Assembly: GCA_016872675.1 (NCBI GenBank)
Contig: VGZG01000006.1
Span: 1-64,000 of the forward strand
DNA length: 64,000 nucleotides
Source of the DNA: Planctomycetota bacterium
Lineage (GTDB): Bacteria; Planctomycetota; UBA1135; UBA2386
Direction of reading: 5' to 3'
Of this stretch, positions 34,773-37,168 are shown piece by piece; within the stretch, counting starts at the first letter, position 1; each line of letters opens with the position of its first letter. The notes beneath the pieces are model-generated. The model made no database searches. It saw only the letters and a program-made list of their open reading frames with translations, and had not been told where the DNA came from. A program made the translations under genes and the position numbers.

Positions 34773-35636
34773 ATGAACCGTCCCATCGTCGCCCTCGCCG
34801 CGCTATGCACCGCGGCCTGGGCCCTAGCCCAGGATCCTGCGCCGACCGCGGCCCCGAAGCGCCTGAGCGTCGTCGCCGACGCGCTCGCCGCGGCGAAGCT
34901 CGAGAACAAGCGTGTGCTGGTCCACTGGCTCGGCGACGGCGAAGCCGGCGCCGCGATCGGCAAGGCGCTCAAGCGCGCACCGCTGAGCCGACAGTTGCTT
35001 TACGAGTTCATGCAGGCGCCGCTGGCCTCGGCCGACGACGCCAAGGCGTTCGGTCTCGGCGACGCGCCCGCACTCGCCGTGCTCGACGCCGATGGCAAGC
35101 AGCTGGCCGCGTTCGCCGCCACGGACCTCGCGCCGTTCGACGCCGGCAAGCTGGCCGAGCAGTTGAAGGCGCATCACGCCGCGCCGCTCGACGCGCAGGC
35201 GTTGCTCGACGCTGCGTTCGCTGCGGCCAAGAAGGACGGCAAGCGCGTGTTCGTTCACTTCGACGCGCCGTGGTGAGGCTGGTGCAAAGTGCTCGAGGAG
35301 TTCCTCGGGCGACCTGAAGTGCACAAGCGCATGCAGCTCGACTACGTCGTGCTCGAGCTCGACACCGACCGCATGACCCACGGCAAGGCGATCTACGACC
35401 GCATGAAGGCGGGTCGCAACGGCGGCCTGCCGTGGCTGATCGTTGTCGACAACGCCGGCAAGGAGCTGATCACCGGCATCGGACCCAAGGGCAACATCGG
35501 CGCGCCAGTGCAACCCGAGGAGTGCGAGCACTTCGTCGCCATGCTGCGCGCGACGAAGCAGCGTCTGACCGACGACGACGTGGCGACGATCGCCGCCGAG
35601 CTCGAAGCGCACGCCAAGTCAAAGCGCCGCAAGTGA
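34773..35636 (+). CDS. Candidate selenoprotein: secreted two-domain thioredoxin-like protein with UGWC active site
   Basis: The frame from ATG 34773 meets a TGA at 35274-35276 and continues in the same phase to 35636. Read through, it gives 287 residues with the TGA as residue 168. The signal peptide is MNRPIVALAALCTAAWALAQ. Residues 25-125 form a degenerate thioredoxin-like domain lacking the Cys pair (VLVHWLGDGEAG). Residues 140-287 form a second one: KRVFVHFDAPW-U-GWCKVLEEFL, with cis-Pro in GGLPWLIVVDNAGKEL. The TGA falls exactly on the first Cys of a CGWC motif, the usual place for selenocysteine, and a SECIS-like hairpin follows at 35291. The alternative is a TGC-to-TGA mutation or sequencing error. 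Its stop overlaps the next start (GTGA). Confidence 0.83.
35291..35310 (+). promoter_or_regulatory. Bacterial SECIS-like hairpin downstream of the UGA codon
   Basis: GCTCGAGG (35291-35298) pairs with CCTCGGGC (35303-35310), eight pairs including one G-U, around the loop AGUU. An outer stem GTGCA/TGCAC (35282-35286 with 35320-35324) can enclose it. The loop begins 22 bases after the UGA and has G among its first two bases. This fits the published general description of bacterial SECIS elements: a hairpin inside the coding region, with the loop some 16-37 bases downstream and a G at the start of the loop. Confidence 0.62.
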
Positions 35637-37168
35637 CGCCGGCCACGCGCGCCGTCGCCGCCGCCGTCGCCCTCTGCTGCTGGCTCGGCCGCGCGATGTG
35701 GCCCGGCGAAATCGACGCCGGCAACCTCGGCCTTGCGCTCGGCGGCTTCGCGCCGGTGGCGCACCACCCGCAGCCGCCGGGCTACCTGTTCCACGTCGTG
35801 CTCGGCAAGGTCTTCGCTGCCTTGGTCGGCGACGCCCACCGCGGGCTCGCGCTGCAGGCGGCGGTCACCGCCGGTCTCGGCGCGCTCGCCATCGCGGCCT
35901 TGGCGCGGCGGTGCCTTGGCGGCGGACTCGCGCCGTGGCTCGCGCTTGCAATCGGCTGCACGCCGGTCGTGCTCTACATGGGCGGCGACGCGCTCAGTGG
36001 CATCGACGCGCTCGGGCTCGGCGCGCTCGCCACGCTGCTGCTCGTGCGCGCGGCCGGCGGTGAAGGGCGCGCGTTCGCAGCGGCGTCGCTGCTGCTCGGC
36101 CTCGCCGGCGGCTTCCGTCCCGACGTGACGATCCTGCTCGCCGTCGCGTGGCTCGTCGCCGCGCGGCCCTACGGCTGGGCCCAGCGCGCCGGCGGCGCCG
36201 TACTGCTGCTCGTCGGCGCGCTGACGTGGCTCTTGTTGACGGTCATCGCGTGCGGCGGCGTCGGACCGTTGGTCGCCGCGTGCGGCTACGTGCAGCCGAT
36301 CCTCGACCGCGAGGCGCTGTGGCGCGACGGCACGCTCGAACGCCAGGCCGCGACCTTGTGGCGCATCGGCTGGGCCGTGCTGCTCGGCGGCGGGCCGGCG
36401 CTGGCGTTTGGCCTGTGCCTGTGGCCGCTGCGGCGCGCCGCGGTGGCGCAGGCCCTGCCGGTCGCGACGCGCGCCGTGCTGCACGCCGCCGCGTGGCCGC
36501 CGCTGCTGCTGCTGGCGCTGACGTTCTGCCACAAGAAGGCGTACCTCTTCGCCGCGCTGCCAGCGCTCGCCGTGCTCGCCGCCGCGTCGTGGCGCTCGTT
36601 GCTGCGCGAACGCGCGGTCGCCGCGCTGCACGCCGTCGGCGCCGCGGCGGGCCTGCTGGCGTGGCTGCTGCTGCCAGCGGCTACCTCGCGGCAAGCCGAC
36701 GCCGACGGCTTCGGCCGCGCGCACGAAGCGCTGCCGTGGCTGGATCGCCTGTCATGGCAGCCGCTCGAGCACACGCTCGCGTCGCGCCGCGCGATGGACG
36801 CGCGCTACGACGAACTCGCTCACCAGATCCGGCGCGCACACGAGCAAGGCCAGCGCGTCGCCGTCGTCAGCCACCCGCCCGACCCGATCGACCTGCGGCC
36901 ACTCGGCCTGATGGCGCCCGCCATCACCGTCGTCGAGCTCGACGGCACACCCGGCGCGTGGCGCCGCGTCCGTATTGGCAAGGGCGCGAGCGAACACGTG
37001 ATCGCGCCCGACGGTGACGGCCGCGTCGCCGTCGACGCCGACGTCGTCATCGCCTGCGTCGGCTGGGACAAGGCCTGGGCGGCGCAGCTACAGCAGGCCG
37101 GCGCGCAGTTGGTGATGGCGGCGCCGACGGTGGTGTTCGCGATCGCGAACGGGCCCGTGCGCTGGTGA
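35633..37168 (+). CDS. GT-C type membrane glycosyltransferase-like protein
   Basis: 511 residues from a GTG overlapping the selenoprotein stop, so probably translated together with it. The first membrane helix is followed by a short acidic loop GEIDAGNLGLALGGFAPVAHHPQPPGYLFHV. The acidic residues followed by a PPGY motif are typical of GT-C enzymes, which move sugars from lipid carriers on the outer face of the membrane. About ten helices follow (for example RAGGAVLLLVGALTWLLLTV). The C-terminal 130 residues are soluble and include VAVVSHPPDPIDLRPLGL and VDADVVIACVGWDKAWAAQL. The overall architecture is like the GT39-like protein at 22983, but there is no close sequence match. The sugar and acceptor are unknown. 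Confidence 0.72.
   Translation: MTPATRAVAAAVALCCWLGRAMWPGEIDAGNLGLALGGFAPVAHHPQPPGYLFHVVLGKVFAALVGDAHRGLALQAAVTAGLGALAIAALARRCLGGGLAPWLALAIGCTPVVLYMGGDALSGIDALGLGALATLLLVRAAGGEGRAFAAASLLLGLAGGFRPDVTILLAVAWLVAARPYGWAQRAGGAVLLLVGALTWLLLTVIACGGVGPLVAACGYVQPILDREALWRDGTLERQAATLWRIGWAVLLGGGPALAFGLCLWPLRRAAVAQALPVATRAVLHAAAWPPLLLLALTFCHKKAYLFAALPALAVLAAASWRSLLRERAVAALHAVGAAAGLLAWLLLPAATSRQADADGFGRAHEALPWLDRLSWQPLEHTLASRRAMDARYDELAHQIRRAHEQGQRVAVVSHPPDPIDLRPLGLMAPAITVVELDGTPGAWRRVRIGKGASEHVIAPDGDGRVAVDADVVIACVGWDKAWAAQLQQAGAQLVMAAPTVVFAIANGPVRW

Follow-up and report, generated by a model that had tools for sequence, protein, structure and literature searches.

A putative SECIS hairpin behind the in-frame UGA of a thioredoxin-like gene in a Planctomycetota bacterium

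In this study, a 64,000-nucleotide stretch of DNA from a Planctomycetota bacterium (contig VGZG01000006.1, positions 1 to 64,000; hereafter the window) was analyzed. A thioredoxin-like reading frame in the window contains an in-frame UGA, and a hairpin lies just downstream of it. The question is whether this UGA breaks the gene or is read as selenocysteine (Sec), and whether the hairpin is the bacterial selenocysteine insertion sequence (bSECIS) that would direct the reading. The coordinates of the features are listed in Table 1.

Table 1. Coordinates of the gene, its UGA and the hairpin elements (window positions unless a homologue is named).
Feature	Position	Strand	Remarks
Thioredoxin-like gene, putative selenoprotein	34773..35636	+	287 codons plus stop; one in-frame UGA, predicted to be read through
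Putative Sec UGA codon	35274..35276	+	First Cys position of CxxC; homologues have TGA or TGC/TGT there
Putative bSECIS upper hairpin	35291..35310	+	8-bp stem 35291-35298/35303-35310; ninth U-G pair 35290-35311
AGUU apical loop	35299..35302	+	Second base G (35300), then U
Outer stem, 5' arm GUGCA	35282..35286	+	Complements 35320-35324 here; not conserved
Outer stem, 3' arm UGCAC	35320..35324	+	Not conserved
Sec homologue regions without AGUU	L052:781-837, L058:597-653, L059:664-720, L071:663-719		

The gene with an in-frame UGA and its genome

The frame ran from ATG 34773, with GGAG a short distance 5' of it, to a UGA stop at 35634-35636, and its only in-frame stops were at 35274 and 35634. With the first UGA translated as Sec, the active site read APW-U-GWC (U-G-W-C). 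The second half of the protein matched Pfam Thioredoxin_7 (6.6e-12, above the cut-off), and DsbH (DUF255), Thioredoxin_2 and Thioredoxin were further matches above their cut-offs in the same half. The protein had a thioredoxin-like domain with Sec as the first Cys of CxxC, which is the arrangement of UxxC selenoproteins. The N-terminus appeared signal-peptide-like from its residues. A Pfam scan of the N-terminal half (34773-35243) gave no domain; this half resembled a degenerate thioredoxin domain without CxxC, and a second matching thioredoxin-like stretch was present in several homologues. Assignment to named NCBIfam selenoprotein families such as TsoB was rejected, the protein being below every curated cut-off (TsoB, 23.5 bits vs. 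a cut-off of 805; DsbD, 27.7 vs. 330).

There is a report of selenoproteins in Planctomycetes (PMC4807772), and UxxC thioredoxin and thiol:disulfide interchange selenoproteins are known (PF00085 and PF13098; PMC13188914). The window protein shares the thioredoxin fold with UxxC with them but differs in having U-G-W-C in its second half, a length of 287 residues, a secreted appearance and membership of a planctomycete family. No paper describing this thioredoxin-like selenoprotein family or its SECIS element was found in the open literature searched. A membrane protein gene at 35633-37168, without a Pfam match, has an apparent GTG start at 35633. The GTGA overlap of this start with the stop of the selenoprotein gene suggests coupled translation.

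The same genome encoded a tRNA-Sec with anticodon UCA (72.7 bits), SelA (447 bits), SelB (343 bits) and SelD (344 bits). SelB had the SelB-specific beta-barrel and the C-terminal winged-helix domain SelB-wing_3. The genome therefore had the Sec machinery, including a SelB with a winged-helix C-terminus, that a bacterial SECIS calls for. SelA was present in 143 of the 154 genomes of the order. The selD of the same genome also contained an in-frame TGA (L048:1300-1302, G000:C131), in the context SGSG-U-AAKLPPG. It was followed by a different hairpin with a CGGGC loop at 26 nt; the fold was no better than that of shuffled sequences (z 0.64), and this candidate was therefore left out as support.

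Geometry and distribution of the hairpin

The region 35288-35313 was folded alone with RNAfold. The minimum free energy (MFE) structure was an 8-bp hairpin extended by the ninth U-G pair, at -14.8 kcal/mol (z -3.8), and none of 200 shuffles was as good. The stem and the AGUU loop lay exactly where the preliminary description had placed them, and a stable hairpin near the UGA was predicted. Its further observations also held: the loop was 22 nt from the UGA, a G stood near the loop start (the second loop base), and the translation across the hairpin was KVLEEFLGR. When 35270-35330 was folded, the MFE structure consisted of the inner hairpin and the outer stem, at -24.8 kcal/mol (z -2.0).

In the published bSECIS model, the apical loop has 3-9 nt and the upper stem 4-16 bp (PMC13188914 Fig. 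2A). At least one of the two first loop bases is G, with G or U usually next to it, 16-37 nt separate the UGA from the apical loop, and the MFE is at most -7.5 kcal/mol (PMC13188914). The window hairpin agreed with the model of that figure in loop and stem size (4 nt, 8-9 bp), loop G (second position, then U), spacing (22 nt) and MFE (below -7.5 kcal/mol), and also in its coding location directly after the UGA. Rfam gave no SECIS match at gathering or relaxed thresholds, and its few SECIS families omit some bacterial ones. In the E. coli fdhF SECIS, a hairpin likewise stands behind the UGA, and a G-U in the apical loop is the SelB contact. The window hairpin shares this position and the loop G-U but differs in stem sequence and loop, and no bulged U was identified in its stem.

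The homologue search covered 154 genomes from the order and 392 from the phylum. In 57 homologues, TGA occupied precisely the codon of the first Cys of CxxC; 44 of these belong to the order and 13 to other parts of the phylum. TGC or TGT stood at the same codon in 90 distinct homologues, so the UGA was found at the Cys position of Cys homologues. The Cys set was assembled from 23 sequences of the order, 7 more of the phylum and 80 from further genome contigs, with 90 distinct after de-duplication; those with named records were nearly all from Planctomycetota. A related-loci search with the single protein as query found no relative. One homologue (G141:C219:9461-10033) was listed with an in-frame TAG.

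The AGUU loop with at least six of the seven core pairs was found in 53 of the 57 Sec homologues and in 0 of the 90 Cys homologues. Within the order, 39 of 43 distinct Sec sequences combined the loop with 6-7 of the 7 core pairs; outside the order, the same held for 13 of 13. RNAalifold predicted exactly the seven core pairs from 39 aligned sequences. The hairpin seems to leave its mark on the protein as well, with LEEFLG in Sec forms and LEDWMA (mostly LEDWM) in Cys forms. In the best tree of the 147 homologues, the hairpin-bearing Sec genes formed few clades, with four changes. The association of UGA and hairpin on the tree came down to two independent pairs on well-supported branches, too few for significance. 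The contrast between Sec and Cys forms is confounded by descent, and the case therefore rests on the synonymous, pairing and compensatory tests.

Four Sec homologues (L052, L058, L059, and L071) had no AGUU hairpin and were located among Cys sequences in the tree. Three of them had other hairpins of the SECIS model, with loops GGA, GUU and UGGAU at 24-25 nt; the alternative hairpin of L058 fitted the model weakly. These four may be independent Cys-to-Sec changes that gained their own SECIS. A covariance model of the hairpin gave 40.9 bits at the window, whose sequence was among those used to build the model. The next match genome-wide, 29.8 bits and the only other strong one, was in a purD-like gene in the frame coding EEFLEG, with no UGA in range, and the same genome-wide search did not find the hairpin in a second selenoprotein gene. 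The purD-like match indicates that the hairpin shape alone is not diagnostic. What constitutes proof is the combination of a UGA at the catalytic Cys with the spacing and the constraint at the RNA level, not the hairpin alone.

Separating RNA constraint from protein constraint

The codons of 44 Sec sequences were resampled 1000 times according to the codon usage of the individual gene, and the amino acids were kept unchanged. A total of 284 core pairs was observed, against an expected 209 ± 5.5 and a maximum of 229 among the resamples. In a column-wise synonymous test over about 50 codons, p ≤ 0.001 was confined in Sec genes to codons +6 to +11. The codon tests assume independent sequences, and since some sequences are close relatives, the p-values are approximate. 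Codons +6 to +11 are the six hairpin codons, covering arms and loop, and synonymous constraint was highest there. For example, GGG encoded 29 of 35 Gly at a hairpin codon, though GGC predominates elsewhere. Cys genes gave scattered single columns, including Leu at +6, and no block. The compared proteins are about 40-50% identical to that of the window, and synonymous sites should therefore be nearly saturated in most comparisons.

Compensatory changes were found in the stem. The arms were UUCCAGG/CCUGGAA in L030 and CUCGAAG/CUUCGAG in L050. The loop-closing G-C became A-U in L053 and L057, and the stem base C-G became U-A in L030, L066 and L069. The changes fell on separate branches. Two-sided changes occurred at 4 of 8 pairs, a number reached by 1 of 500 shuffles; since the stem hardly varies, the counts of covariation are modest. 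Pairing was 95.8% at the true stem and 32-62% in slid controls. Since some of the paired changes bring amino acid replacements (E to Q, E to K, L to F), it is apparently the RNA that leads. The RNA structure was under selection over and above that on the protein, as expected of a bacterial SECIS. The stem was conserved in Sec homologues with compensatory and synonymous constraint, and the synonymous and pairing tests bore out the double constraint on these codons proposed in the preliminary description.

The hairpin could be a by-product of protein conservation, if KVLEEFLGR is needed and its GC-rich codons happen to pair. The LEEFLG stretch is indeed conserved in Sec forms, and the purD-like gene illustrates that chance pairing can occur in stretches coding EEFL. 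However, none of the 1000 resamples with unchanged amino acids reached the observed pairing, codon choice was frozen at the hairpin codons only, and the amino acids changed to Q, K or F where the opposite arm changed to match. Moreover, the fold can do without LEEFL, since most Cys homologues have LEDWM. A by-product is therefore very improbable. A functional SECIS that takes in the outer 5-bp stem is also unlikely, though less so. The preliminary description had proposed this stem, and its complementarity is present and forms part of the MFE structure of the window's own sequence. Against it, all five outer pairs were found in 1 of 44 Sec homologues of the order, which is the window sequence itself, and most had 0-2. 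No synonymous constraint was found at codons +15/+16 of the 3' arm, and the RNAalifold prediction contained the inner seven pairs only. The inner hairpin of the preliminary description therefore stands, while the outer stem is probably chance in the window sequence.

The UGA itself could be a real stop arising from a nonsense mutation or sequencing error, with 35289-35636 a restart or pseudogene and the hairpin irrelevant. An internal GTG at 35289 would allow a restart. However, the same UGA stands at the same active-site codon in the 57 homologues from many genera, conservation spans both halves of the protein, and the possible GTG start of the next gene, overlapping the final stop, fits a live frame to 35636. 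There is very little room for this explanation. General reassignment of UGA in the lineage, for example to Trp or Gly, would also account for an in-frame UGA that is read through. It can be practically dismissed, since a gene almost always has a single UGA, located at the catalytic Cys, the selenoprotein gene and selD both end in TGA, and the tRNA with the UCA anticodon, SelA, SelB and SelD are present.

Predicted selenocysteine insertion and its significance

The hairpin is best read, with a probability of about 95%, as a bacterial SECIS for Sec insertion in a secreted thioredoxin-like protein; SelB binding and insertion are predicted from sequence. The hairpin at 35290-35311 would stand in the mRNA 22 nt behind the UGA. 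SelB, carrying Sec-tRNA(Sec) and GTP, would use its C-terminal winged helices to bind the upper stem and the AGUU loop. Since every part is present and the RNA is constrained, Sec is probably then inserted at UGA 35274. The product would be a thioredoxin-like oxidoreductase, secreted or periplasmic, whose active site is U-G-W-C; its redox function and export are predicted likewise.

The SECIS is a known kind of signal, which is here unusually well conserved. We give even odds to a broader proposal, in which one planctomycete thioredoxin-like selenoprotein family has retained a single sequence-conserved SECIS (CUCGAGG/CCUCGGG with AGUU) over several orders, this SECIS dictates the LEEFLG part of the protein, and the Sec genes of the Cys clade gained others independently.

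On the Sec reading, a gene that looks broken is in fact intact and encodes a selenoprotein. Given the occurrence of SelA across the order, automatic annotation of UGA as stop would truncate the gene in many of its genomes. The 57 Sec and 90 distinct Cys homologues form an unusually clean set for separating RNA constraint from protein constraint on the same codons, which is suitable for studying the gain of a SECIS during a Cys-to-Sec change.
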